A DNA stretch of 32,614 nucleotides from a virus. Positions 1,076 to 32,441 of the stretch are shown here, piece after piece (the stretch's first letter is position 1; every line of letters starts with the position of its first letter). Location: positions 1 through 32,614 of the IMG/VR virus record IMGVR_UViG_3300025168_000344. One strand, 5' to 3'. The notes below the pieces were generated by a model. That model was given only the letters and a program-made list of their open reading frames with translations, ran no database searches and had not been told where the DNA came from. Position numbers and translations under genes: made by a program.

Positions 1076-1095
1076 GCTATATTATTATACTCATG
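1076..1095 (-). promoter_or_regulatory. Late-promoter-like box AGTATAATA (scaffold/capsid)
   Basis: Minus-strand sequence CATGAGTATAATAATATAG, with TATAAT at 1089-1084. It is one of five exact AGTATAATA copies in the window, all in gaps upstream of structural genes. No TTGACA-like -35 is seen. It would give a leader of roughly 110 bases to the scaffold gene. A run of overlapping TATAAT-like words at 1105-1140 lies just upstream and may add weak promoters. Confidence 0.5.
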
Positions 1096-1136
1096 AAATC
1101 AAAAAATCCTACTCAATTATATTATATATTATATAA

Positions 1137-1343
1137 CTATTCGGAATCTGGGAGGCCTTTAGACTCTAATTGAATCATTTCGTTACGAAAATCGTATAAT
1201 GGTACTTGTAAAAGCTTCTTAAGTTTGTCACATTGATTACCTTCGGGTAGTGATGCTTCTACTAAATCTAATACTTTTCCCACCATTTTAGAATGGCGTG
1301 CTATAATAAATTCTTGAGTTGGGGTTACTTTACTTATGTCCAT
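1137..1343 (-). CDS. Small hypothetical head-region protein (68 aa)
   Basis: Unrecognised 68-residue protein, mixed charge and predicted helical, with no transmembrane segment or metal-binding motif (one Cys only). The reading frame is supported by an AATAGGAG site nine to ten bases before the ATG and by position, following the 185-residue protein with a nine-base gap. It lies in the head gene cluster just before the capsid leader, so a virion or assembly role is likely, but nothing in the sequence shows which. Confidence 0.65.
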   Translation of the reverse strand: MDISKVTPTQEFIIARHSKMVGKVLDLVEASLPEGNQCDKLKKLLQVPLYDFRNEMIQLESKGLPDSE

Positions 1344-1352
1344 GGTATTCTC

Positions 1353-1910
1353 CTATTCTATTATTTGAATTGCTTTGGGCAACTGGTTTCTAAATTCTTT
1401 TGGTATTTTTCTATACACCTTATCCCACGCATCCTGTACAAAATTCCGCTGTATTTTTAATTGAGCCATACGTAATCCAAAGTTATTCTTAGGACTAGCT
1501 GTATACCACTTGCCGTCCTTTCCTTCTACTGGTTTATATCCCAGACTATAATATTTAGTGTGAGCCCGTACAGGAACTCTACCTTGTCTTGTGTTCCGAG
1601 TATGCTGTTTTGTCTCAGCAGAATAACTATACAGTGTTCCTTTATTAGGATTTGTTCCTCGTGCTTGAAATACAGACTTGCCTGCATATTTTGATGGAAG
1701 AAGTATAGGGTCAAAAGTTTCGCTGAACTTTATAGAAATGTCATTTGGACTAGCAGTTATTTCAACTTCGTCAGATAATGAAGAAGAGCTAGCTGGAAGT
1801 ATTTTTTCGCATTCTGCTACAATTTCTTCAGCAATTCCTTTCATAAGAACTTCTGAGAGTTTGGCTAAATTCTTCTGCTGTCTGGTATTTGGTTGTCTTT
1901 GTCTAGGCAT
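1353..1910 (-). CDS. Hypothetical virion-assembly protein (185 aa)
   Basis: Basic protein of 185 residues. The N-terminus is Arg/Gln-rich (MPRQRQPNTRQQKNLAK), residues 20-75 look like a helix plus strands, and the C-terminal third is Lys/Arg-rich and helical (QDAWDKVYRKIPKEF). The order of elements resembles HK97 gp10-like neck or tail-completion proteins, but no diagnostic motif is present, so this is a weak suggestion. The start is odd: the only Shine-Dalgarno-like bases (AGGA) lie about 17 bases upstream, inside the end of the preceding gene, while an AGTATAATA box ends only four bases before the ATG. A leaderless transcript from that box would explain the missing ribosome site. Confidence 0.6.
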   Translation of the reverse strand: MPRQRQPNTRQQKNLAKLSEVLMKGIAEEIVAECEKILPASSSSLSDEVEITASPNDISIKFSETFDPILLPSKYAGKSVFQARGTNPNKGTLYSYSAETKQHTRNTRQGRVPVRAHTKYYSLGYKPVEGKDGKWYTASPKNNFGLRMAQLKIQRNFVQDAWDKVYRKIPKEFRNQLPKAIQIIE

Positions 1911-1927
1911 AAACTATTATACTAGTT
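1911..1927 (-). promoter_or_regulatory. AGTATAATA box abutting a start codon
   Basis: Minus-strand sequence ACTAGTATAATAGTTTATG places TATAAT (1921-1916) five bases before the ATG at 1910. If this is a true -10-type element, transcription would begin at or within a few bases of the start codon. It shares the exact nine-base core with four other sites in the window. Confidence 0.4.
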
Positions 1928-3379: not shown

Positions 3380-4408
3380 CTATTTACCTAAAAGCCTTTT
3401 ATATAGGTCCTTACCTATAATCTTCTCAAAGGGTAGGTCTTCGGTTTCTTCATCAAGCTCTTCAACAACACCTCTCTTTTTGTCCTGTCTGCCACCACTA
3501 ACCAAACCACCTCTTTCTGGCCCAGAACCATATTGGAGTTGAACATTTAATCCAGCAGGAGCTGCTTGTCTAGCATCACCCTGCTCTTGTTTATCATTGT
3601 GCTTTATATCTTCTTTATCGTCTAAAGCTTTAATTTTTTCTTCCATATCTTTTTGTTCGATAGCAGCATTTTTGTCTGGCTTGGCATCAAACTCAACAGG
3701 GTTTTTATCCTCAAGGTCTTTTGCGACTGCTGTTTGCGGGTTGATGTCCTCAGAACTACTTTGTTGTCTAAACTTAACATCACTTTTTTTTAGTTCCTCA
3801 GCAACCCAATTAACTAGGTCTACTGTAAAAGCTGTGTTCTTTTTTATCATTTTTCTTTCCGGTGAAAATTCATTTATAAAATCAGCTAACCGGTGTATAC
3901 CAGTTCGTTTTTTCTTTTTTTTCTTACGGTCAACTCTATTTAGTTTCCTCCCACTACCGCCACCATATGTTGGTGTAAAGAATCCAGAGTCAGTAGAAAC
4001 AGCTACAGTACCACCAAATCCTCCTGTAGCACCGCCTCCACCATTTCCACCACCGTTTCCGCCACCGCCATTTTCTTTTTGGATTTTTTTATTTTTAGTA
4101 TCCAATGAGCCTCTAGGGTTTGTAATCCAAGCTTTTTCTAGCTCCGGATGAAATCGGAATGAAACTGTTTTTGCATCTTTAGCAACGGACTTACCGTCTA
4201 TTAGAATTTCTATAGGATATACTTCTGGTTTCTCTAACCAATAAGCAACTTCGTACCCACCATCTTTCAGAAGTTTAACTAATAAACCTCGGTCATAATC
4301 ACCTTCTGCCTTTAAGATTTTCTGTTCACCAACTGGCAAATTTAAATCAACTTTATATACATCTTGAACCTTAGAGTGGTTATGTTCTTTTTTTTGAATA
4401 TTATTCAT
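3380..4408 (-). CDS. Gly-rich hypothetical protein following portal
   Basis: A 342-residue protein with three parts: an ordered N-terminus (about 15-100, strand-rich, with AYWLEKPEVYPIEILIDG); a glycine-rich linker at about 114-135 and a Lys run near 159-164 (KKKKKK); and a helical, highly charged C-terminal half. A short ordered block RLADFINEFSPE follows the Lys run. The family is not recognised. Its ATG overlaps the stop of the portal gene (ATGAATAA), so the two are translationally coupled, and there is no good separate ribosome site. By position it may be a head protein or a protein bound to portal; a protease signature (catalytic His/Ser/Asp pattern) could not be assigned. Confidence 0.65.
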   Translation of the reverse strand: MNNIQKKEHNHSKVQDVYKVDLNLPVGEQKILKAEGDYDRGLLVKLLKDGGYEVAYWLEKPEVYPIEILIDGKSVAKDAKTVSFRFHPELEKAWITNPRGSLDTKNKKIQKENGGGGNGGGNGGGGATGGFGGTVAVSTDSGFFTPTYGGGSGRKLNRVDRKKKKKKRTGIHRLADFINEFSPERKMIKKNTAFTVDLVNWVAEELKKSDVKFRQQSSSEDINPQTAVAKDLEDKNPVEFDAKPDKNAAIEQKDMEEKIKALDDKEDIKHNDKQEQGDARQAAPAGLNVQLQYGSGPERGGLVSGGRQDKKRGVVEELDEETEDLPFEKIIGKDLYKRLLGK

Positions 4409-6356
4409 CGTCTATATTACTTGTAGTTTCTTGTTGTGGTGTTTTGTTACTGCTATATTCTTTCTTTGGTGGACCTGAAAAAACAGCTTTTTCTACATGA
4501 GTTACCCCATTAGGATTTAAGTTTGCTACATATTCTATGTTATTTTCAGAAAACCACATCTTAGATAAATCAGAAGAAAGCTCTTTGATTATGGGAGCCA
4601 TAAAGCCCTTCTCAGCAAGAGACTCTACCCAAGATTTTGACAAAGTAAGTTCATTTTTCTTTGCCCTAGCTTCAGCATATTCATCTATATCTCTCTCTTC
4701 GTCTGGAGATTTGTCACTCCAGTCTGGTGTTATTCCACCCATTCTACCTTTAAATTTACGTTGTGATGGTGGTTTATATGCTTTCTGCATTGCCTGAATA
4801 GGTTCTCCACCTTCTTCCCCCTCAACGCCCTCTTCACCCTCAGCCATCATTTCATCTTGCTGTTCTTGTTGTTCTTGCATCAATTGTTGCTGCTGTTGTT
4901 CCATTTCCATTTGTTGTTTCTGTTGTTCAAGTTGCATAGCAGCTTGTTCAGCCTGCATCTTAGCAGTAGGAACTGGGTCCCCACTAACAATAAATTCAGC
5001 CTCAAAAAGTGCAACATCTTGTTCTTTTAGTTTTATATCAAATCCTAATTGTGCAAATTGATTTACTATTTGTATCTTCTGTTGTGCATGAGCCAGTCTG
5101 GTGTTTTCAGCTTTCTCTTCAGGTTGCGGTAGAACTATTTCGTAATCCGTAACACCAAAGGCATCTAATAATTGCGGAAATACCTTCTCGTGAAATAATC
5201 TTTGGTCACTTTCAACAACACGACTCATAACAACTAGTTGCTGAGTTTGCTGAGATAATCCACCGAATGCATCGGGAGCACCCTGCCACGCTGGGGTTAC
5301 ACCCCACATAGCTGCTACACGTTCTCTAATTTCGTCCCTAATAGGTAAATATTCCATTTCGTTTAGACTGTGGAATAACCTTACAAGGTCTACTCTACCT
5401 CTTTGGTTTCTAGCAGATACTGCTACCATTGGTATATAGTTAGGGTCCATTCTTGTTTGAGCCGCAATATGTTCTCTTTCTCTACGTAATGACTCTGGGT
5501 CATCAGTAGTTACCATTAACATACTTGCAGGCATTTTTCTTTCAAAGAAATATCTATATAGGTTTTTATCCATACCAACTAATGTTAAAGCTTTTTCAAA
5601 TATAGTTAGGATTGGGGACCATCCATAAGTTTCGGATGGAGCAAACTTAGATAGATGAATAACCTCTTCGTCAGAGAAATACATGTGGGCACTTCTGTGA
5701 TAGTACTTGTACATTGCGGGAACTAATTTAACATTACATCCCTCGGTAACACAAATACCGGCCGTATCTTGAATCACTTCCCTATGTATTGGACATATAT
5801 AATGTGAATTTTTAGGTAATCCGGCTTGGTCTAAGTCAAACTCAACTAAAGCTGGGTTCAACCTTCTTAGTTCTTGTAATCTAGAAGACACGCTACCATC
5901 TCCATTATCTTTATATTCTTTAGCTAAATAAAGAAAACCATCATCTAAGGTGTTCATATCAAAGTGGAACTGTCTTAAAACCTCTTCCATACTTTGGTCA
6001 AACACATTAGAGTCTTTTAGCCACTTCTGTACTTTTTCTTTCTGTTTAATATCTGGGTCTTTTACTTTAGGGACTATTGTTATACCCCGCCTAAAAACCT
6101 CACCTGTAATATGAGATACCGGTCCTCTAATTTCTTCAACAGACATTGCAACTGTTTGCAAATCTTGTATTAATTGTTGGCGATATGCCATTTGATGTCT
6201 AACCCATGTATTTACAACTTGGTCAAGACCTACAGTTGGGGCTTTCCCAGTGTCCCCTTGCGATTTCATGACATCTAATAAACTGATTTGTTTATTCAAG
6301 TCTGCCATTTGTTGCTGCATTTGAGGAACTTGTGGTAGATATTCAGATAATTTCAT
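4401..6356 (-). CDS. Portal protein
   Basis: A 651-residue protein forming the dodecameric DNA channel at one capsid vertex. The order is typical of portals: an N-terminal helical region, a clip-region stretch (about 85-240), then FSDEEVIHLSKFAP, YGWSPILTIFEKAL and a long helical stem with MWGVTPAWQG near 345-355. Residues 188-207 hold CPIH and C-x4-C, a probable zinc-binding insertion not usual in portals. After residue 460 there is a Gln/Glu/Met-rich coiled tract, then a C-terminal tail of about 150 residues with TPDWSDKSPDEERD. The length is above that of common portals because of this tail. Start: AGGGA five or six bases before the ATG, two bases after the previous stop. Confidence 0.85.
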   Translation of the reverse strand: MKLSEYLPQVPQMQQQMADLNKQISLLDVMKSQGDTGKAPTVGLDQVVNTWVRHQMAYRQQLIQDLQTVAMSVEEIRGPVSHITGEVFRRGITIVPKVKDPDIKQKEKVQKWLKDSNVFDQSMEEVLRQFHFDMNTLDDGFLYLAKEYKDNGDGSVSSRLQELRRLNPALVEFDLDQAGLPKNSHYICPIHREVIQDTAGICVTEGCNVKLVPAMYKYYHRSAHMYFSDEEVIHLSKFAPSETYGWSPILTIFEKALTLVGMDKNLYRYFFERKMPASMLMVTTDDPESLRREREHIAAQTRMDPNYIPMVAVSARNQRGRVDLVRLFHSLNEMEYLPIRDEIRERVAAMWGVTPAWQGAPDAFGGLSQQTQQLVVMSRVVESDQRLFHEKVFPQLLDAFGVTDYEIVLPQPEEKAENTRLAHAQQKIQIVNQFAQLGFDIKLKEQDVALFEAEFIVSGDPVPTAKMQAEQAAMQLEQQKQQMEMEQQQQQLMQEQQEQQDEMMAEGEEGVEGEEGGEPIQAMQKAYKPPSQRKFKGRMGGITPDWSDKSPDEERDIDEYAEARAKKNELTLSKSWVESLAEKGFMAPIIKELSSDLSKMWFSENNIEYVANLNPNGVTHVEKAVFSGPPKKEYSSNKTPQQETTSNIDDE

Positions 6357-6358
6357 TA

Positions 6359-6805
6359 TTAATCCCTAGTTAGTTTAGTCATATCCTGCATGGATACCAA
6401 TTTTATTATATTGTCCATGGCTTTTTCTTTTAGTTCAAACTCTTCAGAATGAGAAGCTGCTTTTTCGACAACACGTTTTTCTTTTGTTAAGTTATTTAGC
6501 TCTTCTTCTAATTCTTTGATTTTTTTATCTTTTAGCTCTATCTCATATTCTAACTCAGTTGTATCTATCTCGGAATTAAAGGATGAACCTTCTAATAATC
6601 CCTGACCACCAGCTTCTCTAATCAAAGCTAAATATTCGCCTTGTTTTAAAACTTTGATAGCGGGACTTTCATCAGGAACATCATCATCAGCAGTCATCAT
6701 TTTTAAATCTTGATGTTGAGTGTCTATTATTCTCCAAGTACCTTTATCATCTAAATGTGCTTTATACTGCTCATTTGAACCGGAAAACATGTTTCCTATT
6801 ACCAT
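6359..6805 (-). CDS. Coiled-coil protein between nrdJ and portal
   Basis: A 148-residue acidic protein with no recognised family. Residues 1-75 are mixed, with an Asp-rich loop (TADDDVPDESPA). Residues 82-118 form a clear charged coiled coil (LKDKKIKELEEELNNLTKEK). It follows a strong late-promoter-like box with a 30-base leader and an AGGAG ribosome site, and lies two bases before portal, so it is probably the first gene of a head transcription unit. A role as a portal chaperone or minor head protein is possible but not shown. Confidence 0.65.
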   Translation of the reverse strand: MVIGNMFSGSNEQYKAHLDDKGTWRIIDTQHQDLKMMTADDDVPDESPAIKVLKQGEYLALIREAGGQGLLEGSSFNSEIDTTELEYEIELKDKKIKELEEELNNLTKEKRVVEKAASHSEEFELKEKAMDNIIKLVSMQDMTKLTRD

Positions 6806-6828
6806 ATATTCTCTCCTAAAATCTTTTC

Positions 6829-6850
6829 TATTTATATTATACTATATTTT
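6829..6850 (-). promoter_or_regulatory. Late-promoter-like box AGTATAATATAAATA (head genes)
   Basis: Minus-strand sequence AATATAGTATAATATAAATA with TATAAT at 6841-6836. It includes both the AGTATAATA core and a TATAAATA word of the kind used in T4 late promoters. An A-rich tract lies just upstream and no TTGACA-like -35 is seen. It sits between nrdJ and the 148-residue protein, 30 bases before the latter's ATG. Confidence 0.6.
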
Positions 6851-6872
6851 TCGTATTTACCTACGCTTTTAC

Positions 6873-8816: not shown

Positions 8817-8837
8817 GAAACTAAGGGCCTCCCTATA

Positions 8838-8870
8838 TCATTATATTTGTTTTATTATATCTATTACTTT
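8838..8870 (-). promoter_or_regulatory. Promoter-like region upstream of nrdJ
   Basis: Two TATAAT words on the minus strand at 8859-8854 and 8845-8840, in GTAATAGATATAATAAAAC and AAATATAATGATATAG. The first resembles the late box but has GATATAATA in place of AGTATAATA. It lies in the short gap after the terminase stop, so nrdJ may be transcribed separately from the packaging genes. A small AGGG-AGG-CCCT dyad overlaps the ribosome site. Confidence 0.4.
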
Positions 8871-10540: not shown

Positions 10541-10542
10541 CT

Positions 10543-22042: not shown

Positions 22043-22054
22043 AATTTTTATTTT

Positions 22055-22068
22055 ATCCCTATTGGGAT
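22055..22068 (-). promoter_or_regulatory. Hairpin sequestering the sigma ribosome site
   Basis: On the minus strand ATCCC-AATA-GGGAT forms a five-base stem with a four-base loop. The only Shine-Dalgarno-like sequence for the sigma gene (AGGG) lies at the start of its second arm. It ends 12 bases before the ATG. It could lower or regulate sigma translation; the long spacing already predicts weak translation. Confidence 0.35.
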
Positions 22069-22079
22069 TTATTACAATG

Positions 22080-22131
22080 TATTACTATTATATCACAATT
22101 AAATAAAAAATGTTACTATTTTATAACAATT
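22080..22131 (-). promoter_or_regulatory. Tandem promoter-like repeats upstream of sigma
   Basis: Two 21-base direct repeats on the minus strand, 31 bases apart: the one at 22131-22111 begins AATTGTTATAAAATAGTAA and the one at 22100-22080 begins AATTGTGATATAATAGTAA; they match at 18 of 21 positions. The downstream copy contains an extended -10 box, TGATATAAT (TATAAT at 22092-22087), typical of host sigma-70 without a strong -35. The 31-base spacing is three helical turns, suiting a regulator bound to both copies. This is the best candidate for host-driven transcription of the sigma and replication genes. Confidence 0.5.
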
Positions 22132-22162
22132 TTAGGGAATATATTACGAATATCGTTTAAGT

Positions 22163-22534
22163 TTATTTAAAACCTACTTCGCTTATATGATTGTGAAAAC
22201 ATTTAGGACTGCAGTATATATTTTTATACCCTTCGTTATATTTTTGAACAATTTGACTGCGTTTTCTATAAAAAGGTATCGTACAATAATTACAATTTAC
22301 TTTTAAGTTATAGTATTTGAAATGACAGCTACCTTTATGAACTCTGGTTGTGCTTATCTCCCGACAAACTAAACAGTGTTTTACACCTTTTTGGCGTTTG
22401 GCTCTCAGTGTAGGTATATTATTCTCTTTCAACACCCTGTGTATATAGGGACTAGACACATTGAAAGCATCTCCTATTTGTTGTAAGGTATCGTGTGGAT
22501 TATCGTATCTATATTGTATGATTTTAGAAATCAT
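22163..22534 (-). CDS. HTH and zinc-finger protein, putative regulator
   Basis: A 123-residue basic protein. Residues 14-42 form a helix-turn-helix (TLQQIGDAFNVSSPYIHRVL). Residues 54-110 carry three Cys pairs: CLVC, then CNYC with a nearby CHF, then CSPKCFHNH, resembling two zinc knuckles. The mix of HTH and zinc-binding suggests a DNA-binding regulator; an HNH-type nuclease relative is less likely because no HNH metal triad is complete. It lies immediately before the promoter gap in front of the sigma gene, so it may control that region. The start overlaps the previous gene by 11 bases and has no clear ribosome site. Confidence 0.65.
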   Translation of the reverse strand: MISKIIQYRYDNPHDTLQQIGDAFNVSSPYIHRVLKENNIPTLRAKRQKGVKHCLVCREISTTRVHKGSCHFKYYNLKVNCNYCTIPFYRKRSQIVQKYNEGYKNIYCSPKCFHNHISEVGFK

Positions 22535-22736
22535 CTGTCGTTTTGAGAGACAGTTCGTAATTTTTTACAATAGTGCTTAGTTCATTTTTCCAGTGTGTAG
22601 CTAAATAGTTTGCATCTACAGTAGTTTCTGCCGGGTTTAATTCCCAGCCACCTTTTATGTGCCCTGAAGCTGCCTCAATTCTATCCCATTGAGCCTCTGA
22701 GAAAGTCATTGATACTGTTACATCGCCTTCTGCCAT
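22524..22736 (-). CDS. Small hypothetical protein after tail fibre
   Basis: A 70-residue acidic protein, MAEGDVTVSMTFSEAQWDRI, with an unclear family. The last part has DANYLATHWKNELSTIVKNYE, a helix common to short ORFs after tail genes in phages. Its ATG overlaps the fibre stop (TAATGG), so it is translated by coupling. It could be a small chaperone or a non-virion protein; no function is claimed. Confidence 0.6.
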   Translation of the reverse strand: MAEGDVTVSMTFSEAQWDRIEAASGHIKGGWELNPAETTVDANYLATHWKNELSTIVKNYELSLKTTDDF

Positions 22737-25700
22737 TAGTTATTCTCCTTTAGTTTTTCTATTTCTTCTTTTAGTTTTTTTATTTCCATTAATAATACTA
22801 CTGATATTCGGTCATAACTTATAGAATCTGGTCGCCCTTCTTCATCATAAATTACTAATTCTGGAAATAGTTTATGTACTTCTTCCGCTATTAAACCAAA
22901 TCCGGGTTTTCCTTCATCATTTGTGTTTTCATTGTTTTCATATTCTACTGGTCTCATATCATATATTTTAGACGAGTCTAGAGCAGCATCAACAATATTC
23001 TTTTTATACCGTTCTGAAGATGTAAACTTATAAATTAATCCGCCCGCACTTCCATGTAAAACAGTACCGGCACTTCCACTTGAGGTCATACCTACAGAAA
23101 GTCCACTACTGCTTAAAATTGATATTACAGAACCAGCAACAGAATGCCTTATAGAGGGACCACTAGCATCTCTATACATCCCTGTATCTATGTCTGATGA
23201 AAAAGCAAACGTTGGCAATATAGCTCCACCGTCATCACCATAATATCGAGGAGCGTTTGGTATAGAAGTTGGAGAAGAACTTTGTGCAAATCCTCCTTGT
23301 ATTCCTACTAAACGCCATACAGCATATGGAAGGTCATAGTTTATCTCAGCAATTATTTTGAGGTCTGAGTCGTTACGTTCTTGAACTAATGCCGCATAAT
23401 CGCCATCATCTATTACTCTAAATTTAGTTTCACCTTTTAAGTAATAAACATAATAAATTCTACCATCTGAATTTAATGCCGATAGATAACTTGAATCGCC
23501 TGCCTCAATTACAAAAACTTCATTCCCAACATGAACATTTCCAGCTGCCCAATTTACCTGACTTGCAGATGAAGAACTAAATACACATGTTGTTCTAACT
23601 GATGGGTTAGCTGCAAACTCTGGCTCATCTGGTAAGGCATCATCTGTGTTTACGGAATCGGTTAGTCCACTCACATTACTACCAGAAAACTCAGCTGCTT
23701 GAAGAACCGAGTCTTCAACAACCTCATATCTTGTACTTACCCCGCCATTAGCTTCTCTATACTCCATCCCAACCACAATCATAGTTTTATCTACGTTTTG
23801 AATATCACTTCGTACTCTTAATGAGTCTGCGGCTCTGACTGGAATATAGTATCGTAGTGTAGAACTAGTAGAAACACTTCCGGTAGCCCAAGTAACTTTT
23901 ACTTTTGTAGCACTTACCCAAGTAGCATACCCATAGGTACCTGTAGGCAATCCATTAGAATCTAATTCATTAATTGTCATACCGGTACGGAATCCATATT
24001 TAGTCAAGTCTATATTACTATCATATATATCTGCACCACTTGTATGTTCAGCAGCTGATGTAGAGTTTTGAGCTCTAGTCGCAGTAATTAATATTTTACT
24101 GTTGACTGCTGTAATTATTAATTCTTCACTGTCTATTTTTATACGTTGCCCCACATACATACCAGTAGAGTCTGTTACATCAATTGGAGTCTCACTTGTA
24201 TCTAAAGCCTCATTTAACTTACCTGTTAAGAGAGTATTACCAACAGTTATTTCAGCTGTTCCAGAACCTGATACAGCACTTGGAACGTTATCTATATAAA
24301 AATTAGGAACATAAACTGATTGAATGTCTCCTCTAACTGGTGGGTTATGATATCTTAATAAAGCCGCTGCTACACGTTCTCTAATGGTGTCTGGGTCTAC
24401 TGTACCTGAAAGATTAATTTTTTGTGTTTTTCTAACACCTTTTGCAATTCTTGGTCTACCACCGGCTTTAAGTTGAAAAGAATGTCCAGAATCATTCCCA
24501 AAAAAATTATTTAAAGTTGGAGCTGCGGAAGATGTACCCCAAATAACTGTAGAATCATTTAATGCTGGGTCTATATGAGATATTAACATATATGCTGTTT
24601 CTACTGCTGGGTCGGCATTTACGGTGTTTGTACCAGCGGTCAAATATTGTATTCTACCTACAATTGTAGAAATAAATGCATCATCATCTCTCTCAGCATC
24701 GGTAGTTCCATTATGTCCTCTTTGAACTGTTAAATTAGTACTACTATTTATAGCTGTTATTAGGACCTGTTCTCCGGGAAATCCTATAAATAAAACTTGC
24801 CCTACATACATATCTGCTGTTGAATCAAGAGTTAAGCTTGTAGCACCTGCGGCAAAATTACTCCCCATATTTATCTGAGTCATTAGCCCTCTAAATCCCT
24901 CAGCACTGTCTGCATAAGCTAAATCAGAGCCACTTATAGTAAGTATCCCACCTGAAATATTTCGTCCCGGATATACAAAACCAGCACCAGCAGTATTAAT
25001 ATTAAAAACTTCAATCATTTCAAAGTTTTCAGTATTTCTGGTAGTTACTGCATCACCTTTATCTGCTCTAGAAGTACTATTAAAGTTACACGTAACATCA
25101 GTAAAAAACTCCCCTCGGTCTGTTGTAAAATTACTTTGTGTCATAGGTATTTGACGACCTGTAGTAACAAAAGAACCGTTGGTAATAGTGTCCGGAGATG
25201 GGAAATGAATGTTCAGCCCAAAGGCTGTAGGGCCTAAAGTTTCACTAGTTGGACGAGTTCCTCTTTTAAAATAATCTAAAAATGATGTTGATAAACTATT
25301 ACCTGTTGATGTTATATTAGGAGACACATAAAAATCATAACCAAAGCCATCTTGGTCTGCTGATAAAATATAGTGTGGCTCACTAACTGAAGCACTTCTC
25401 ATATGTTTTAGTACTGATTGTGATGCTTGACTTGATAATTTTAAAAGACCATTTTTTTTATAATTTGTTACAGATTCTGTCCATCTGTCATCTACTGCTT
25501 GTAATATAGCTTTGTCTGAATGAGTTGCTGCAGTTGTTCCTCTGTATTCTCTTTCTACAGTTATAGTAGTTTTGTTGGTAACAGCTGTTACTAGCATTTC
25601 TTCATTATCTACTTTTAATATTTGCCCCACAAACATATGGGTAGAATCAATTACCGTTAATTCAGTTTCACTGTCATCAATAGCTTCATTTACCTGTATA

Positions 25701-26467
25701 GAAATACCCGGATGTCTTAAGTTGTTTGAAAAGTGGTCAAGTAAAGATTTTACTAAACCCCCTCTGCTTCCATATGGTTTTACATATTCCTTTCGGTCTC
25801 CATCAAGAACACCTTTTCTTGGTATAAATTGAAATATAGGAGTAGCGGCTTCAAACATAGCTGCACCATTTGAATGAGTATCAAACTCACTATTAACACC
25901 TCGTACAACATTTATAACAGTAGAACTAACAATTTCTGTAATAATCATATCCTCATCATTACTAGCAAATGTTATTCGCATACCTATTCGTAATTCATCT
26001 GTATTCGTAACAGTAATTGGTGTTTCACTATTATCTAAATCTTCATTTAAGGTAGCAATTAAAGCTCGGTCGTTTGCTATTTGTCTAAAAGAGCTTCTAC
26101 CTGTAGTAGTTTGGTCTTTTATTTCAAACAGATAGTCAGATGCTTCAATAATTAAAAACATTCCATCTGCAGTACTAAATTCTTCAGTAACTTTTGTAGC
26201 AGCTCCGTAAAAATAACATTCACCTGTATCTTTATCTCTAATTTTTATAGGTGTAAAATCTCCTACAAGACCTGTAAAAGGTCCTTTAGCAGAAGCTGCA
26301 GAGTTAGATTGCGGGTTAGAGGAATTATTTGAAAGGGTAATTTTAGCTACTCTAGGTTTCCCTAAAGTGTCTGCAATAACAAGGTTATATACACGTGAAT
26401 CGCCTCCAACACTAAAGTCTTCCCATGAATCCCCGTCCCAATAAGATGCTATAGATTTAGATGCCAT
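22736..26467 (-). CDS. Tail fibre or baseplate protein with S74 domain
   Basis: A 1243-residue modular protein. Residues 1-130 resemble a tail-hub-like entry (PIKIRDKDTGECYFYGAA). Four copies of a ~67-residue beta module follow (139-206, 259-325, 533-600, 750-816), each with a D/E-S-E-T-P/L-I-T-V opening and the pattern YVGQ-x-I-K-I-D. Residues 880-1060 include sugar-binding-like and Tyr-rich strands. Residues 1089-1130 are a trimer-like DIDTGMYRD...GSVISILSS stretch. Residues 1151-1243 are an S74 self-cleaving chaperone with S1151 and K1155 in SERYKKNI, GFGLIAEEVHKLFPELV and a terminal coiled coil. The domain is expected to cut before S1151, releasing the mature fibre. Host receptor is unknown. 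Confidence 0.82.
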   Translation of the reverse strand: MASKSIASYWDGDSWEDFSVGGDSRVYNLVIADTLGKPRVAKITLSNNSSNPQSNSAASAKGPFTGLVGDFTPIKIRDKDTGECYFYGAATKVTEEFSTADGMFLIIEASDYLFEIKDQTTTGRSSFRQIANDRALIATLNEDLDNSETPITVTNTDELRIGMRITFASNDEDMIITEIVSSTVINVVRGVNSEFDTHSNGAAMFEAATPIFQFIPRKGVLDGDRKEYVKPYGSRGGLVKSLLDHFSNNLRHPGISIQVNEAIDDSETELTVIDSTHMFVGQILKVDNEEMLVTAVTNKTTITVEREYRGTTAATHSDKAILQAVDDRWTESVTNYKKNGLLKLSSQASQSVLKHMRSASVSEPHYILSADQDGFGYDFYVSPNITSTGNSLSTSFLDYFKRGTRPTSETLGPTAFGLNIHFPSPDTITNGSFVTTGRQIPMTQSNFTTDRGEFFTDVTCNFNSTSRADKGDAVTTRNTENFEMIEVFNINTAGAGFVYPGRNISGGILTISGSDLAYADSAEGFRGLMTQINMGSNFAAGATSLTLDSTADMYVGQVLFIGFPGEQVLITAINSSTNLTVQRGHNGTTDAERDDDAFISTIVGRIQYLTAGTNTVNADPAVETAYMLISHIDPALNDSTVIWGTSSAAPTLNNFFGNDSGHSFQLKAGGRPRIAKGVRKTQKINLSGTVDPDTIRERVAAALLRYHNPPVRGDIQSVYVPNFYIDNVPSAVSGSGTAEITVGNTLLTGKLNEALDTSETPIDVTDSTGMYVGQRIKIDSEELIITAVNSKILITATRAQNSTSAAEHTSGADIYDSNIDLTKYGFRTGMTINELDSNGLPTGTYGYATWVSATKVKVTWATGSVSTSSTLRYYIPVRAADSLRVRSDIQNVDKTMIVVGMEYREANGGVSTRYEVVEDSVLQAAEFSGSNVSGLTDSVNTDDALPDEPEFAANPSVRTTCVFSSSSASQVNWAAGNVHVGNEVFVIEAGDSSYLSALNSDGRIYYVYYLKGETKFRVIDDGDYAALVQERNDSDLKIIAEINYDLPYAVWRLVGIQGGFAQSSSPTSIPNAPRYYGDDGGAILPTFAFSSDIDTGMYRDASGPSIRHSVAGSVISILSSSGLSVGMTSSGSAGTVLHGSAGGLIYKFTSSERYKKNIVDAALDSSKIYDMRPVEYENNENTNDEGKPGFGLIAEEVHKLFPELVIYDEEGRPDSISYDRISVVLLMEIKKLKEEIEKLKENN
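24020..26053 (-). repeat. Four beta-module repeats inside the fibre gene
   Basis: Protein-level repeats at about 26053-25850, 25693-25493, 24871-24668 and 24220-24020. Shared elements are a lead of the type LNEALDTSETPIDVTDS, a central VGQRIKID/EELIITAV unit and a close resembling RGxxGTTAAxH followed by an Asp/Ala-rich edge. They are diverged in DNA, so they are old duplications. Two relatives appear in the tail tube gene (residues about 44-115 and 218-290). Confidence 0.65.
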
Positions 26468-26479
26468 ATATTACTCCTT

Positions 26480-26998
26480 TTATGATACACCTGCTCTCCA
26501 ACCAGCCACAAATTGAATACTAAAAGCCCACCTGTCTTCTAACCCCGGAGCTTGAGAAAATTGAAATTGAGCTATAGCCACTTCATGAATTGCTCCACCT
26601 GTAGAAGCTGTTGTTCCCGACCCTGAATAATCAGGCGTGGTTGCGTCACCAATCTCAAGTTCTAAGTTATCATTTGTTGTCCAAGTTAAAAGTTTCTTTT
26701 CTAAATAGTTTTTGTATGGAATATAGTAGGTTTGCCCTTGAGTTGTAAATTTTTCCATATTAAAGAAAGCATTTGCAGTTGTATTACTTAAGTCTTCACC
26801 AATGTTATCAATAATTCCTGATACAGTAATAGTAGGTCTTGATTGCCCTAAGTCAATTATAACTGGAGAAGCACCCGGTATGGGTATTTGAATTGGTTGT
26901 CTACCATAAGATAAAGATAGTTGTTCTACTTTTAAAGCAAGCCTATCAGTTGCCCCGGAATTTGTCCCGTCTCTAAGTAATACGGATAAATCTGCCAT
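26480..26998 (-). CDS. Distal tail/baseplate-like protein
   Basis: A 172-residue strand-rich protein. Residues 25-70 include PIQIPIPGASPVIIDLGQSRPTITVSGIID, a pattern seen in tail-tip and baseplate connector proteins in which a beta strand pair is followed by a VSG turn. A central FFNMEKFTTQGQTYYIPYK block and a C-terminal FSIQFVAGWRAG are also seen. It lies between the tape measure and the fibre, where the distal tail protein normally is. AGGAG precedes the ATG. The assignment is by position and pattern. Confidence 0.6.
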   Translation of the reverse strand: MADLSVLLRDGTNSGATDRLALKVEQLSLSYGRQPIQIPIPGASPVIIDLGQSRPTITVSGIIDNIGEDLSNTTANAFFNMEKFTTQGQTYYIPYKNYLEKKLLTWTTNDNLELEIGDATTPDYSGSGTTASTGGAIHEVAIAQFQFSQAPGLEDRWAFSIQFVAGWRAGVS

Positions 26999-27007
26999 TG
27001 CTTACTC

Positions 27008-28006
27008 CTAACTGTAAAGATTGTAGTTATCTGATTCTAAAGCCCGGTCTTCTTCTCTAGTTAAGGCTTCACCTATATTGTAACCTGTATATATATCAGC
27101 CCCACCACCACCGGTTAGGCTTCTAGCAAAAGTTGCACTACGTTCAGCAGCGGTTGGTATAGAAACTATTTTTGTTTTTATCCCATCATCGTCAACTACC
27201 TTGTCTAATTTGTTATTCAATACTCTCAATTCCTCTGCAGCAGCATTTTGAGCAGACTGAACGTCAGATTGAAAGTTTGCGAGAGGACTCGTTGCACCTT
27301 CACCAAAAGGGTAAAAGTCTCCTCCGAAAGGATTTGGAATTTTCACCTTTAAAAGCATTGCTATAAGGCCATTTATTGGTGTTAAGATGTCATTCAATAA
27401 ACCTAGTCCCAATATTTTTAATTCTAACCATAACCTTTGCACGGTATCGCCCAGTTTTTTTACATTATTAACTATCTTGGGTACTGCACCACCTTCACCA
27501 ATTAAATAACCAATACCACTTTCAATAAGTTCTATAGCAGTTATTACTGCACCTAGTACTGGAATGCTTTTTAACATATCCATTCCAATTTTTTTAGGGT
27601 CTTGAGTCATGTATTTAGATTGTATTCCTAATATTCTACCCGCTGTCTCAAGCATAACAGCAAATGTAGGCACTAAAGGAATAAGCATAATATCTACCAT
27701 GGCCCCAATTAATTGGAAAAAGGCACCTATTGTACCTGTAAAAATTTGTGATTGTTTCATCATTGCTGACATTTGAAAACTAACACCTGTTAATTTTTTT
27801 GCTGAAGTAGCTCCGTCTTTTGCATACTTCATTGCTTTTTTAGGTCCGTGAATAGTTGCATCTAATGCTTTTTTTGCCACGCTAGACGACATCCCTTCAG
27901 CCGCAGCACCATACGCACCACCAACGGCACCACTGGCACCACGAGCGGCCATACCTGCACCACTAGATGCAGCTTTCATAATTGCTGGTAACAACGCAAA
28001 CACCAT
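27008..28006 (-). CDS. Putative tape measure protein (short)
   Basis: A 332-residue protein. The first 50 residues are Ala/Gly-rich. Hydrophobic helices lie at about 89-128 (TGTIGAFFQLIGAMVDIMLI), 146-170 and 198-220, as is usual for tape measures, and the C-terminal third is charged and helical. It follows the tail chaperones, the standard site of the tape measure gene. By the usual ~1.5 A per residue relation the tail would be about 50 nm, which is short for a siphovirus; the value is a rule-of-thumb inference. It starts with AGGAGG ten bases before the ATG. An alternative is a membrane-active virion protein. Confidence 0.65.
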   Translation of the reverse strand: MVFALLPAIMKAASSGAGMAARGASGAVGGAYGAAAEGMSSSVAKKALDATIHGPKKAMKYAKDGATSAKKLTGVSFQMSAMMKQSQIFTGTIGAFFQLIGAMVDIMLIPLVPTFAVMLETAGRILGIQSKYMTQDPKKIGMDMLKSIPVLGAVITAIELIESGIGYLIGEGGAVPKIVNNVKKLGDTVQRLWLELKILGLGLLNDILTPINGLIAMLLKVKIPNPFGGDFYPFGEGATSPLANFQSDVQSAQNAAAEELRVLNNKLDKVVDDDGIKTKIVSIPTAAERSATFARSLTGGGGADIYTGYNIGEALTREEDRALESDNYNLYS

Positions 28007-28025
28007 TTAAACTAATTCCTCCTAA

Positions 28026-28271
28026 TTAAAATTTCATTCCCTTGTGCATTGAGGTTGCCTTAGTGGCAGCCATTGCTCGGGCTTGTTCATCATTTTCTTT
28101 TTGATTCAGTGCCATTTGTACACCTAAAATCAAATTTAATTCATCACCATTCATACTTTGTATGGCTTCCCAACTAATCCCCATTTTTAATAACTGGATG
28201 GTAATAATCCAGTGGGAGTATAAAACAACTTCATAACTTGTTATGTCAGTTGAACCCCGTGTGAAAGCCAT
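28026..28271 (-). CDS. Tail assembly chaperone, second frame (gpT-like)
   Basis: An 81-residue helical protein (MAFTRGSTDITSYEVVLYSH) that is out of frame with the preceding ORF. The ATG at 28271 overlaps the stop of the first chaperone (TAATGG), so it might start by re-initiation. However, the A_AAA_AAA heptamer upstream joins it in-frame via R-V-M, giving a 203-residue fusion. The C-terminus is Lys/Met-rich and could bind the tape measure, as gpT does in lambda. The pattern W..Y..i..LLK.G.s...i is typical of the downstream half of tail chaperones. Confidence 0.75.
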   Translation of the reverse strand: MAFTRGSTDITSYEVVLYSHWIITIQLLKMGISWEAIQSMNGDELNLILGVQMALNQKENDEQARAMAATKATSMHKGMKF

Positions 28272-28636
28272 TACCCTTTTTTTATTTCGTCAGCTTCCCC
28301 TTGTTTATCAAATGCTTGAGGTACTAAGGGCTCTAAAGCTTTTCCTAGTCTCTCATCTATTGATACTAAAAAAGATTCTGTCGTAGGACCCCAAGGAGCC
28401 TTTACAATCATTTCTTTTAAACACTCTTTCATATAGTAATCCCCATCAAAAGAGTTGTTCCCACCGCCATCAATTTTCAAACATTTAGAAACTATTTTGT
28501 TTCTCCTGCTCCAAGACATAGGTTTAAGTGTAACCTTAACCTCGTCCCCAGTTTCTTCAATAACTATTGTTTGTTCATAGTTCTCACCTGAAATTTGATA
28601 CTTTGAAATATCAAAATCTTTACTCTGCTCCGCCAT
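28271..28636 (-). CDS. Tail assembly chaperone, first frame (gpG-like)
   Basis: A 121-residue protein: MAEQSKDFDISKYQI, strand-rich 21-45 and helical after 45, ending QGEADEIKKG. It lies between the tail tube and tape measure, as does lambda gpG. It has a GGAGG site eight bases before the ATG. Its last codons hold a seven-A slippery site, ATA-AAA-AAA-GGG-TAA, from which a -1 shift continues into the next ORF. The product pair would be the 121-residue short form and a 203-residue long form in a fixed ratio, guiding tube assembly around the tape measure. Confidence 0.75.
   Translation of the reverse strand: MAEQSKDFDISKYQISGENYEQTIVIEETGDEVKVTLKPMSWSRRNKIVSKCLKIDGGGNNSFDGDYYMKECLKEMIVKAPWGPTTESFLVSIDERLGKALEPLVPQAFDKQGEADEIKKG
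28277..28283 (-). promoter_or_regulatory. Programmed -1 ribosomal frameshift site (A_AAA_AAA)
   Basis: Seven A residues on the minus strand, read ATA AAA AAA GGG TAA in frame 0. A -1 slip gives AAA AAA AGG GTA ATG, in frame with the downstream chaperone (R-V-M-A-F-T). An AAGGGGA sequence at about 28302-28296 lies about 13 bases upstream, as an internal Shine-Dalgarno that stimulates -1 shifts in dnaX. Downstream, a small CATAA/TTATG hairpin starts about 31 bases away, too far to be a clear stimulator. Confidence 0.8.
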
Positions 28637-28657
28637 ATAGGCCTCCTGTTCTATTAT

Positions 28658-30490
28658 TTATGGATATACTGGTACGCCATCCACTATTGTTATTCTTAAA
28701 CTTCTAAACACCATATCTAAATCTACTTGAAATGGATTGTCACCCGTTATGCCATGAGGTGCTGAATTAATAAAAATACCTTGCTTATTTAATTGATTTG
28801 TATTATCTGAGCCCTCATCAGGAGCTCCCACAATAGCAGCAGGTGGTATGTCTATAGTTATAGAATCATTGGTTCCTCTTTCAAATTTCAAGCTAGCTGT
28901 AAAACCCCTTCTATATACAGTTCCGTTAGCAGCACCATAATCACCTTCTAGTAGTAATTGTTTAAATAATTCTAAAGCACTGTCTTGAGCAGCTGTTGAA
29001 ACAATAGCTGAATTAACTACATCTGCGTCTGGTAATACTACACTAGCTGACATAGAATATTCTCTTGGCCCCTCTCGGATTTCAAAAGGTCCTCTTGCTC
29101 TTGCACCCTGTTTGCCAATATAATATCTTGGTTCTTCTCCGTTTGAAATAGATAAAGAAAAGCTTCTTATTCTAGCAAACTCTTGCTCAAAAAACTTTAT
29201 TGTTCCTTCTGAAAAATAATAAGGAGAAGTTGTTGGATAGCCTGTACCATCATTAACGGCAGCACCATTATGACTTGGCATTCCTACATCATCTGTATCA
29301 ATTGTTTGCATCAAACCAAATCTAGGCATATTGGCTTCAATACTCGCTCCATCGTAATCATCGCCTGAAGCTGTTCCAACAGTTTTTTGGTTTCTTACAT
29401 TATGTACCATGTTTAAGAAGTTAACACTATCCCAAGACATAGTAAGCATGCCACCTTCTTCAGCACTTATTGTAGATGAGCCTATCATTCCTCCTACGTA
29501 TCTTCTGTCAAAATTTTTAAGAGCAGTTTCTGTACTATCTTTCATATGTACATGCCACGTTACTGTGTCTAAGTCCACTGCTTCTTCAATAGTGTGTGTA
29601 TAAACGCTTGCGGTTGTACATTCTCGTACAGCTGTACTGGTTGCGTGGTCAAAACTTAATGGGTAATTTAATTTAACTCTACTACTTATAATATCAACTA
29701 TTCTTCTTACTTCAGCAGTAGTGTTTGAATCGTCAGCAGTGTATCCAATAACAATATAGTCACCGTCTGCTAAATTTGTGACTGCGTTTAGAAGAATATA
29801 AACGTCACCTTTTTTTACTGCCCCATTAAGAGTAAGTCCAGTACTACTACTTGTAGAGCTAGCTATTGGAAAGGTACGAACGGTTCCTATTGGGAATCTT
29901 AATGGCCACCCATTAAGTAAAACCATACCCGAAACACCACCAGCTAATGTTTGTTGCCCCGGATAAAATACTGAAACATTTCTTTTAGCAGCAGTATTAA
30001 GAAACCTTCTTCCCTCTATACTCATCTCTGGGTCTGGGGTATCAAAAGTTTCATATATACCGGGAATAAAAGTTATAAATTTATTATTGTCCCCATGTCT
30101 GGTAACATCACCCTCATCGCCTAAGCCATCTACCTCTTTTATCTCTGCATCATTATCTTGAAAAAAAGCAATAGGTCTGTCTAAAGTAAAGGTATTTGTT
30201 GTGTTCCCCCCAGCTTTGTCCATTGACTCAATACGCCTAACTTCGTGTTCTGCAACACTAGAAGCGTAAGTACCATCAACGGTACCTATTCTTATAAAAT
30301 CCCCAATTACAAAAGTGTTACTAACTCCATCTACAGATATTGCTCTGCTACCCGCATTGTGGTCACCCACCAATGCAGCTGTAGCTGGTGAAGAAGAAAC
30401 AATAGACCCTTCTATCATTTCGGCATCTCCCCCTTGTGCTGCTTCAGCAGCGAATGTCAATTGTGCTTGGTCACTTCTATATACACCCAT
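28658..30490 (-). CDS. Major tail tube protein with inserted beta modules
   Basis: A 610-residue protein starting MGVYRSDQAQLTFAAEAAQG, the usual opening of siphovirus tail tube proteins. Later parts (about 300-610) hold the tube-like fold (FARIRSFSLSISNGEEPRYY and RGFTASLKFERGTNDS). Two insertions at about 44-115 and 218-290 share the pattern G-D-x-I-x-I-G-x-x-x-x-x-x-EVRRI with the modules in the fibre. Its place is directly before the tail chaperones. The length is well above ordinary tail tube proteins (often 200-300), because of these modules. A contractile sheath is an alternative but no sheath motif or tube partner is seen. GGAG lies nine bases before the ATG. Confidence 0.65.
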   Translation of the reverse strand: MGVYRSDQAQLTFAAEAAQGGDAEMIEGSIVSSSPATAALVGDHNAGSRAISVDGVSNTFVIGDFIRIGTVDGTYASSVAEHEVRRIESMDKAGGNTTNTFTLDRPIAFFQDNDAEIKEVDGLGDEGDVTRHGDNNKFITFIPGIYETFDTPDPEMSIEGRRFLNTAAKRNVSVFYPGQQTLAGGVSGMVLLNGWPLRFPIGTVRTFPIASSTSSSTGLTLNGAVKKGDVYILLNAVTNLADGDYIVIGYTADDSNTTAEVRRIVDIISSRVKLNYPLSFDHATSTAVRECTTASVYTHTIEEAVDLDTVTWHVHMKDSTETALKNFDRRYVGGMIGSSTISAEEGGMLTMSWDSVNFLNMVHNVRNQKTVGTASGDDYDGASIEANMPRFGLMQTIDTDDVGMPSHNGAAVNDGTGYPTTSPYYFSEGTIKFFEQEFARIRSFSLSISNGEEPRYYIGKQGARARGPFEIREGPREYSMSASVVLPDADVVNSAIVSTAAQDSALELFKQLLLEGDYGAANGTVYRRGFTASLKFERGTNDSITIDIPPAAIVGAPDEGSDNTNQLNKQGIFINSAPHGITGDNPFQVDLDMVFRSLRITIVDGVPVYP

Positions 30491-30513
30491 AATTTTTTAC
30501 TCCATGTTGTAAC

Positions 30514-30539
30514 ATCGTATATTTATATTATACTTATTT
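30514..30539 (-). promoter_or_regulatory. Late-promoter-like box AGTATAATATAAATA (tail genes)
   Basis: Minus-strand sequence AAAATAAGTATAATATAAAT with TATAAT at 30532-30527, in the 49-base gap before the tail tube gene. It contains both the AGTATAATA core and a TATAAATA word, the same arrangement as at 6829-6850. An A-rich tract lies upstream and no -35 is seen. Confidence 0.6.
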
Positions 30540-30980
30540 TTACGAAGTTTCTAGTAATACTCCGTTGTTTTCTAATTGTATCTCAATTGTTCCTGTCCAA
30601 ACGTTTGCCTGTTCCCCAACCTCTTCATTAAAAGTTGTAAACATTTGTCTCTGAAAATTAGTTAATGAATGCCGTCTAGCATGCATAATTCTTCGAACTT
30701 CTCTCATTAAATTATATAATCTTTGTCTACTTGTTAAAGTAAATATTTCTAACTCAAGGCTATATGCTCTGTTCCCATATTTATGATTCCCTAAAGGGGT
30801 TTCATCAAAAGCTGGGCTACCAGTTCTTCCGATTAAATGGTCGCCAACGTTTAAGTCAAAACGATAAGGTTGGCTTTCACCGTTTACGGTAGTCAAGGCT
30901 GGTTTTGTTACATTAGAAGCATCCCACTGACTATTTAAATCAGTCATTACTGCATCTATAGGTATCGGCTCATCTGGCAT
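30540..30980 (-). CDS. Putative tail-completion (terminator) protein
   Basis: A 146-residue protein of mixed fold, MPDEPIPIDAVMTDLNSQWD. Residues 70-115 have a helical core with SLELEIFTLTSRQRLYNLMREVRRI, like tail-terminator proteins in which an EVRRI helix packs the ring; residues 125-140 form strands (WTGTIEIQLENNG). It sits between the connector and the tail tube, where tail-completion proteins lie. It overlaps the connector stop at 30980 by one base. The role is inferred from order and pattern. Confidence 0.55.
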   Translation of the reverse strand: MPDEPIPIDAVMTDLNSQWDASNVTKPALTTVNGESQPYRFDLNVGDHLIGRTGSPAFDETPLGNHKYGNRAYSLELEIFTLTSRQRLYNLMREVRRIMHARRHSLTNFQRQMFTTFNEEVGEQANVWTGTIEIQLENNGVLLETS

Positions 30981-32113
30981 TAAAACACCTCAAAGGCTCG
31001 CATGCTGTCTAAATTAGAGTCTATTTCAGCCTGCCAACCACTTATTTTTGAACTTATATCATATCTATCCATACCGCTTACTACAGAGCCACCAAAGTCT
31101 GCACTTCTTGAAATCTCAATAGCCGCTAATTTTTTAGCCATATCTGATATAAGTCCACCTTGTTGGATATCTGTATGGATGTCCCTACCATGTAGATAGG
31201 TTACTTTCACAGGCATAGTAAATTCTCCACCACCCCATCTCCACACTGGAGCATTGTAAGAAGTAAATCTTGCGGGTAGTAAAAAGTATCTTGAAAATTG
31301 TATCATGCCTGTATCAGGAACCATAAAATAATCTTTTGTTCTTCCTTGTCTTCTTGTGTCCCATTCCGCCCCATTCCAAACTTGTAAAGATAATATTTTG
31401 TATGGGTCAGGTCTGTCTAAATGAAATCCATTTAGATTAAAAGGATGGTATTCATTAGCTATATAATTAGGTCTCCAAGATTTCCTAGACTGCATATCTA
31501 TATAAGACTGTGCTTCATAAATATATTGTTCAACTGTTGCTTTACTAGGAACCGTAGAGCTAGTAAAGTCTGTACCACTAAGTACATTTTTAAGTTGCAT
31601 TAGTTCATAAACTTCTTTGGTTGTACAGTATGCAGCATGAGGTCTCATCTGTATTCTTTTTATTGTAGGTGCGGTAGAAACGCTTGTAGGAGATGAAATT
31701 CTTACCCAATATAAAGTACTGCTATTTATTGCAACTGTTGCCCAATCGCTAAGTAAGTTAGAAGGAAATATTTCTGCTCCATCTTTAGAGAAATCATATT
31801 GCCCGCCTTCATTGTCATCTGGGTCTAGTTCATACCTAGCAGAAGCTGGTATAAATTCTGTCCATGCTGAACCATTGTAGTATTCATATTGTAGGGTACC
31901 CACAACCCCAGCAGTATCAACATCAAATATAGCCATGTCAAATTTTGATGCATGACCTAAATAAAGATGATGAGCTGTGGAATTAAGTATAGTAAATGAC
32001 GTACCTGCAGGGCTCTGAGACTCTAAGGTAACATCAGCATAATCACTGCCTGATGTACCTACACCGTCCCAATTGAACACTTTATCAAATACTGCTCCAG
32101 CAGTGGTTGCCAT
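30980..32113 (-). CDS. Two-domain head-tail connector/adaptor
   Basis: A 377-residue protein. The N-terminal part (about 15-155) is a beta domain with YEYYNGSAWTEFIPA and TLYWVRISSPTSVSTAP, a Trp/Asn/Gly-rich virion domain that often decorates phage structural proteins. The C-terminal part (about 160-377) matches head-tail adaptor proteins: YCTTKEVYELMQLKNV, EQYIYEAQSYIDMQSRKSW and PYKILSLQVWNGAEWD, then a helical end. In the usual adaptor (lambda/HK97 gp6 type) the second part alone is the gene, so this is a fusion. It starts with an AGGAG site seven bases before the ATG; the site lies in a 10-bp palindrome CTCCTAGGAG. Confidence 0.65.
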   Translation of the reverse strand: MATTAGAVFDKVFNWDGVGTSGSDYADVTLESQSPAGTSFTILNSTAHHLYLGHASKFDMAIFDVDTAGVVGTLQYEYYNGSAWTEFIPASARYELDPDDNEGGQYDFSKDGAEIFPSNLLSDWATVAINSSTLYWVRISSPTSVSTAPTIKRIQMRPHAAYCTTKEVYELMQLKNVLSGTDFTSSTVPSKATVEQYIYEAQSYIDMQSRKSWRPNYIANEYHPFNLNGFHLDRPDPYKILSLQVWNGAEWDTRRQGRTKDYFMVPDTGMIQFSRYFLLPARFTSYNAPVWRWGGGEFTMPVKVTYLHGRDIHTDIQQGGLISDMAKKLAAIEISRSADFGGSVVSGMDRYDISSKISGWQAEIDSNLDSMRAFEVF

Positions 32114-32122
32114 TTATATCTC

Positions 32123-32377
32123 CTAGGAGTCTTTTTTATCCCCTGTTTTACCTTTTATTGCTTCTTTAGCTGCTTCTACAACTTCGTCTGGTACTCCGCC
32201 TTCATTTATCACTTCCGGTGTATTATCTTTTCCTCTTAGGTACATTAGTACACCCTGTAGATTTTGTATGCTACCTACTAGTTGTTCTCGTTGGGCGTTA
32301 ATTTTATTTAAGTCCTCAACTAAAGCTTCCATTTTTTCAGTAACTGCTTTTAAATCGTTTTGTACATCTATCTTCAT
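32123..32377 (-). CDS. Coiled-coil protein (84 aa) before the connector
   Basis: An 84-residue protein. Residues 5-48 form one coiled coil (VQNDLKAVTEKMEALVEDLN), followed by a Gly/Asp/Glu-rich tail ending KGKTGDKKDS. AATAGGAG lies about ten bases before the ATG. It is the first gene after a late-promoter-like box and ends nine bases before the connector. It may be a small head or tail accessory protein; no family is recognised. Confidence 0.65.
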   Translation of the reverse strand: MKIDVQNDLKAVTEKMEALVEDLNKINAQREQLVGSIQNLQGVLMYLRGKDNTPEVINEGGVPDEVVEAAKEAIKGKTGDKKDS

Positions 32378-32418
32378 GTTTCTTTTCTCCTATTTTCTTT
32401 ATCCCTTTTTTATAGGGG

Positions 32419-32441
32419 TCTTTATTATTATACTATATTTT
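32419..32441 (-). promoter_or_regulatory. Late-promoter-like box AGTATAATA (connector/tail genes)
   Basis: Minus-strand sequence AAATATAGTATAATAATAAA with TATAAT at 32432-32427, directly after the stop of the partial ORF at the right edge. It matches the box at 6829-6850 through AATATAGTATAATA, 14 bases. An A-rich tract precedes it and no -35 is seen. A CCC/GGG dyad follows at about 32401-32419. Confidence 0.6.

Follow-up and report, generated by a model that had tools for sequence, protein, structure and literature searches.

IMG/VR virus record IMGVR_UViG_3300025168_000344 is a phage genome fragment of 32,614 bases, which was analyzed as a whole (the window) and on which essentially all real genes lie on the minus strand. 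Scanning both strands, we found five exact copies of the 9-mer AGTATAATA, a predicted -10 element of phage late promoters, all on the minus strand and all intergenic. They are located at 1083–1091, before the putative scaffold gene (132–965) of the head operon; at 1915–1923, before gene 1353–1910; at 6835–6843, before gene 6359–6805 and the portal gene (4401–6356); at 30526–30534, before a tail gene (28658–30490); and at 32426–32434, before gene 32123–32377. The predicted transcription starts of the first, third, fourth and fifth sites fall at about 1077–1078, 6829–6830, 30520 and 32420, respectively. Two sites share the extended form AATATAGTATAATA (6843 and 32434) and two the form AGTATAATATAAATA (6843 and 30534), and at all five sites TTGACA is absent, the best -35 match at spacings of 15–19 having at least two mismatches. 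An initial annotation of this DNA had described the same five minus-strand sites with no other exact copy, their extended forms and the absence of a TTGACA-like -35 element, and it was accurate on each of these points. It had also placed every site in a gap before a structural gene; the gaps are real (5 of 5), but the genes are called 'structural' because of what lies next to them, namely portal and tail genes and, in relative G002, the gene of the major head protein, and not because each open reading frame had a family match.

Dinucleotide shuffles of the window contained on average 1.02 copies of AGTATAATA and at most 4, and none of 100 reached five. Copies with one mismatch were at chance level (22 versus 22.7 expected), so that looser relatives alone carry no weight and exactness matters. 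The looser relatives reported earlier before nrdJ and the DUF3310-like gene did not survive: the latter belongs to a TGnTAKAAT-like class, and the former is not conserved in orthologs.

We extended the analysis to related phages, of which a search with the terminase identified 131 in IMG/VR (80 were fetched) and a search with a sigma factor encoded in the window a set of 15 loci. Together with the window, 22 relatives that were read nearly in full comprised ~703 kilobases (kb), in which genes were called approximately with a simple purpose-made caller. In coding-oriented relative loci the motif occurred 98 times in forward and 0 times in reverse orientation, although the forward copies are not independent events because some of the loci share a contig and some of the phages are closely related; the sole two reverse matches were unturned pieces of the window itself. 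The 22 relatives and the window contained 83 exact sites, and 69 of these fell in gaps, which account for 6% of the sequence. Same-strand gaps had 61 sense copies, compared with 1.7–4.9 expected from Markov models, and no antisense copy, while coding DNA had 7 sense (8–10 expected) and 2 antisense copies (7–9 expected). Good copies inside genes, a concern raised in the initial annotation, were thus at or below expectation. A blind k-mer search of 206 deduplicated gaps returned AGTATAATA as the most enriched 9-mer (26 gaps versus 1.1 expected, 0 antisense), and TATAAT following dinucleotides other than AG showed no comparable gap enrichment.

The motif also stays at orthologous structural genes while the flanking sequence diverges. 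Upstream of gene 6359–6805 the exact 9-mer is present in 27 of 32 orthologs, the five without it being more distant relatives, and it precedes the tail gene 28658–30490 in 8 of 8. Counting AGTATAATG, the form AGTATAAT[A/G] is found upstream of 132–965 in 15 of 15 orthologs. Upstream of 32123–32377, where the upstream regions of some matches are rearranged, 4 of 6 orthologous matches scored as exact. An independent set of loci was obtained by scanning IMG/VR for TGGCTNAGACCAACCTT, a block within a leader RNA described below, which returned at least 119 stretches. Among the matches listed, there are 73 distinct contexts, and 67 have AGTATAAT 40–73 nucleotides (nt) upstream; the other six have no further part of the leader and were probably matched by chance, so that among the matches listed all 67 true leaders are preceded by AGTATAAT.

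The consensus of 37 non-redundant sites is T-AGTATAATA; all other columns stay below 0.5 bits, and nothing strong appears upstream of -15. The 67 leader promoters have a block, roughly TAGRATTTT, at -34 to -26, and when a matrix derived from 21 scaffold promoters was applied to 22 late sites, one per family, it peaked at the identical spacing (z 3.8; 1 of 5000 local shuffles). Part of this signal may be a generic T/A tract, because promoters with a TGn-extended -10 element give a similar matrix peak one base away; the block could possibly be a degenerate contact for sigma region 4. As this weak block is common to the late sites, we rejected a strict -10-only class. The earlier proposal of -10-only promoters used by a phage sigma factor in the same genome therefore stands for the sigma gene and for the lack of a strong -35 element, but not for the strict absence of upstream sequence.

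The distance from the 9-mer to the start codon varies from 4 to more than 100 nt with the motif itself unchanged. In 15 of 19 close cases, from about five gene families, the ATG follows exactly 4 nt after the 9-mer, as it does at gene 1353–1910 with its site at 1915–1923. The A of the ATG then lies 6 nt after the hexamer, near the start positions that have been reported for late promoters of Kayvirus and phiEco32 (PMC7698491, PMC8948821). Owing to this spacing, we predict leaderless messenger RNAs (mRNAs) for gene 1353–1910 and similar cases. Because AGTATAATA lies at operon boundaries and often near start codons, it could be thought a signal for RNA processing, packaging or translation. This seems scarcely credible, given that a fixed motif stands at such varied distances from the start codon, includes a complete -10 hexamer, immediately precedes a leader RNA opening with a hairpin, and in the leaderless cases has a spacing that suits a -10 element. 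A 5'-terminal hairpin is not general in the predicted late transcripts, as we saw no clear folding excess after the predicted start at 34 sites; the scaffold leader has one.

This leader, at 966–1079 (minus strand), is a predicted structured 5' RNA of the scaffold-capsid operon and occurs in more than 100 IMG/VR stretches (loci L140–L258). Alignment and folds give it a 5'-terminal hairpin, a conserved GGTCGG..TGGCTNAGACCAACCTT block, invariant as GGTCGG...GACCAACCTT, and a stem that is predicted to cover the ribosome-binding site of the operon. The leaders fold better than shuffles (z about -3), and the 5' hairpin has one compensatory change. CCUU:RGGAGG pairing with the ribosome-binding site can form in 66 of 66 leaders, and only one to two of the positions flanking it covary; being almost invariant, this universal pairing proves little alone. 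No Rfam family matched the leader at E<=1.

A possible hairpin of the form GGTCGG...CCGACC is also present inside polA, at window positions ~17,702–17,732 (minus strand), and several relatives have matched changes there (AGTCGG...CCGACT).

We then considered which genes the motif precedes, with early, middle and late labels assigned by gene content and not by time courses. With all records pooled, the upstream region contains AGTATAAT[A/G] for 53 of 239 structural genes, compared with 4 of 401 genes of replication or packaging (p=3e-20, with no correction for kinship). The four exceptions are all RuvC genes, where some relatives have AGTATAATR with leaderless spacing; by ortholog group and with RuvC set aside, the split is 5 of 18 versus 0 of 23 (p=0.011). 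In maps of the 81.6-kb and 66-kb relatives G001 and G002 the sites adjoin structural genes. The nrdJ-terminase-recA-polA-primase-dnaB-sigma block has no sites in G001 and only one in-gene AGTATAATG in G002, which also has a few sites in a poorly annotated region at 25–35 kb. With this module specificity, the initial idea of a phage-specific promoter class for structural genes held with respect to chance, strand, intergenic position, conservation at orthologs and the independent locus set as well.

Elements of the form TGnTA[T/G]AAT show the reverse trend, standing before 21 replication or packaging genes and 6 structural genes; in 13 of the 21 cases the gene is that of the sigma factor. The ratio of structural to replication or packaging genes is hence 53:4 for the late class and 6:21 for the TGn class. 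In the window the element before the sigma gene is TGATATAAT at 22087–22095 (minus strand), an extended -10 of the host sigma70 type that belongs to this contrast class and not to AGTATAAT; TGnTA[T/G]AAT is found at this place in 13 records. Early regions of G002 have promoters of the form TTGACA-N16-18-TGnTATAMT. A sigma gene behind a host-type element together with the motif at late genes is the pattern expected if the sigma factor is made first and then activates the late genes.

Since the core of the motif is the exact sigma70 -10 hexamer and host-type promoters are present in these genomes, the sites might instead be strong promoters of the host primary sigma factor, active throughout infection or derepressed late. 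We regard this as unlikely. The conserved part has AG at -14/-13, and not a TGn extension, so that the late class does not conform to host sigma70 promoters; TTGACA with at most one mismatch is found at 1 of the 37 non-redundant late sites (3%) compared with 19% of TGn sites; gaps show, as noted above, no similar enrichment of TATAAT after other dinucleotides; and the gene module separates the two classes (53:6 versus 4:21).

The early promoters of two relatives have further recurrent sequences. Those of G002 at ~19,600–30,800 (L098, L099) share TTGACAA repeats, for example TTGACAAAAGTTGACAA and TTGACAAAACTTGTCAA, which look like operators overlapping the -35 element. Early gaps of G001 at 20,882–35,490 (L103, L104) recurrently have AAACTTTTTT ~21 nt upstream of an element that resembles TATAAT and is often TGn-extended; these may represent another class of early promoters.

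The candidate reader of the late promoters is encoded at 21500–22042 (minus strand), where a predicted extracytoplasmic function (ECF)-like sigma factor of 180 amino acids combines sigma region 2 with a C-terminal helix-turn-helix resembling region 4. The Pfam model Sigma70_r2 matches the window protein at 5e-11 and region 2 was detected in 16 of 16 family members, while matches to region 4 were weak (6–7 of 16). A homolog is present in 19 of the 22 relative records, and the three without it are fragments of 16–21 kb. An AlphaFold model of modest confidence (mean predicted local distance difference test score 73, predicted template modelling [TM] score 0.41) has three N-terminal and three C-terminal helices. 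With this model Foldseek retrieved mostly cellular and phage sigma factors, at modest E-values and low TM-scores; the best two PDB rows, titled as ribosomal-protein/RNA polymerase integrative models, were left uninterpreted. Among PHROG families the protein matched phrog_351 and phrog_1740, the cluster of phiEco32 gp36, and not phrog_234. The phrog_1740 match is weak (2e-5 for the window protein, 5e-11 for a relative), and a direct profile comparison with gp36 was not significant. T4 gp55 matches phrog_234 at 3e-69 and compares with the window protein at an hhalign probability of ~1%, which is not significant; by these profile comparisons, the window sigma factor is outside the gp55 family.

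Just upstream of the sigma gene, a small gene at 22163–22534 (minus strand) is conserved beside it in most relatives. Its product has weak helix-turn-helix, zinc-finger-like, sigma region-4 and DNA-binding matches and a best PHROG match to an HNH endonuclease, and could be a transcription co-factor or an endonuclease.

The reader of the motif might be a host polymerase reshaped by another phage factor, such as this product or an unseen activator, and not by the sigma factor alone. Its conservation beside the sigma gene, its weak region-4 and DNA-binding profile matches, the weak -34 to -26 block common to the sites, and the use of co-factors in T4 and phiEco32 late transcription (PMC2988020, PMC8948821) all favor this. 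We nevertheless consider it very unlikely, as the best PHROG match is to an endonuclease, no strongly conserved upstream operator was seen, and a -10 element is most simply read by a sigma factor.

From motif, placement and gene content, we infer that AGTATAAT[A/G] is probably the -10 element of a class of late promoters that the host core polymerase recognizes when it carries the phage ECF-like sigma factor. Early and middle genes, including the sigma gene, would first be transcribed by host RNA polymerase with its primary sigma factor from TTGACA/TGnTATAAT-type promoters. The phage sigma factor would then take the place of the host sigma factor on the host core polymerase, which it would direct to the AGTATAAT[A/G] sites upstream of the head, portal and tail operons and, in some relatives, upstream of RuvC. 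The element, usually after T, would occupy about -14 to -6, with the degenerate -34 to -26 block maybe providing a weak region-4 contact. Transcription would start ~6–7 nt downstream of the TATAAT hexamer, giving a leaderless mRNA where the ATG lies 4 nt after the 9-mer.

Several points weigh against recognition by the phage sigma factor. TATAAT is the host sigma70 -10 consensus, and for this reason the core alone is compatible with the host enzyme. From the region-4-like domain of the sigma factor one would expect a more distinct -35 element than the one observed. In G019, which also has the sigma factor and is more distantly related, the portal-operon promoter instead looks sigma70-like (TTGACA-N18-TATAAT). 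Finally, the genomes are related and fragmentary, and kinship inflates several of the p-values.

We compared the proposed class with known phage late-promoter systems. The initial annotation had drawn an analogy to T4 gp55, which directs transcription from the late box TATAAATA (PMC2988020). The functional parallel is sound, as both concern late genes, a -10-like element without -35, and a phage specificity factor on the host core polymerase, here a predicted one; family membership is not shared, with phrog_351 and phrog_1740 for the window protein and phrog_234 for gp55. The sequence TATAAATA is included in only two of the five window sites, the longest ones, and is not conserved across the class. 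It was also tried as the true motif and rejected, having 10 copies versus 5 expected, on both strands, scattered and not conserved. Neither gp33 nor a sliding-clamp gene was identified here in a search that was not exhaustive.

phiEco32 gp36 is the nearer parallel. Its middle and late promoters have the consensus tAATGTAtA, with starts reported 6–8 base pairs (bp) downstream (PMC8948821, PMC4331800). Both systems have a phage ECF-type sigma factor, structural genes preceded by a single short element of high conservation, and host sigma70 promoters for early genes, with phrog_1740 weakly common to gp36 and the window sigma family. Unlike phiEco32 with its single tAATGTAtA element, the class described here has AGTATAAT[A/G] and a weak -34 to -26 block, and the window sigma factor has a weak region-4 match whereas gp36 was reported to be without region-4 homology (PMC8948821, PMC4331800). 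Late promoters of Kayvirus 515A1 (consensus TGTTATATTA, initiator ~6 bp after the -10 box, supported by RNA-seq; PMC7698491) likewise have a long -10 element and no -35, lie in the structural-gene region and have been ascribed to a phage sigma factor; they differ in consensus, phage type and host, and the window class is known from sequence alone. In Salmonella phage 7-11, gp47, also a phage sigma factor for late genes with a region-4-like C terminus, uses bipartite promoters, GTAAtg-(16)-aCTA (PMC8948821), while here the upstream part is very weak. Our literature search found nothing specific, either on the motif string or on marine parallels. Overall, the motif is genuine and conserved; it probably marks late promoters of a known kind with a new consensus, whose most likely reader is the phage sigma factor.

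What is known of temporal gene control comes from a handful of cultured phages, and here such control becomes readable from sequence in a large uncultured family, with its 131 terminase relatives and more than 100 leader-bearing stretches. The consensus allows late operons, start sites and gene classes to be annotated in these contigs and is paired with a candidate sigma factor of testable specificity, and the exact 4-nt spacing to the ATG makes leaderless late mRNAs a concrete prediction. The leader of the scaffold operon is a candidate new RNA regulator. More speculatively, the two might form a two-layer late switch not described together before, in which sigma-specific AGTATAAT[A/G] promoters with exact spacing would yield some leaderless mRNAs, and the scaffold-capsid leader, which is not in Rfam, would hide the ribosome-binding site until bound by a factor of the phage or host or by a ligand; we hold this combination as tentative.

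Searches for clues to the host gave one distant relative. A terminase profile had no match in the genome collection searched, and a portal profile found one contig, JACOXG010000010.1 (L259), binned with a Candidatus Daviesbacteria metagenome-assembled genome. This contig encodes relatives of the portal, terminase and nrdJ proteins (39–47% identity) and has few copies of AGTATAAT, none in a promoter-like setting; its binning with Candidatus Daviesbacteria may be an error. In an annotated phage collection, the closest proteins to those of the portal (4401–6356) and tail (28658–30490) genes were from haloarchaeal tailed viruses, at 25–28% identity. Because of this resemblance we considered an archaeal TATA box and rejected it, as the motif can stand 4 nt before the ATG and the phage has a sigma gene and promoters of the sigma70 type. 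The likeness of the structural proteins to those of haloarchaeal viruses does not identify the host, and the same phage encodes a bacterial-type sigma factor, RecA and DnaB despite its haloarchaeal-virus-like portal and tail.

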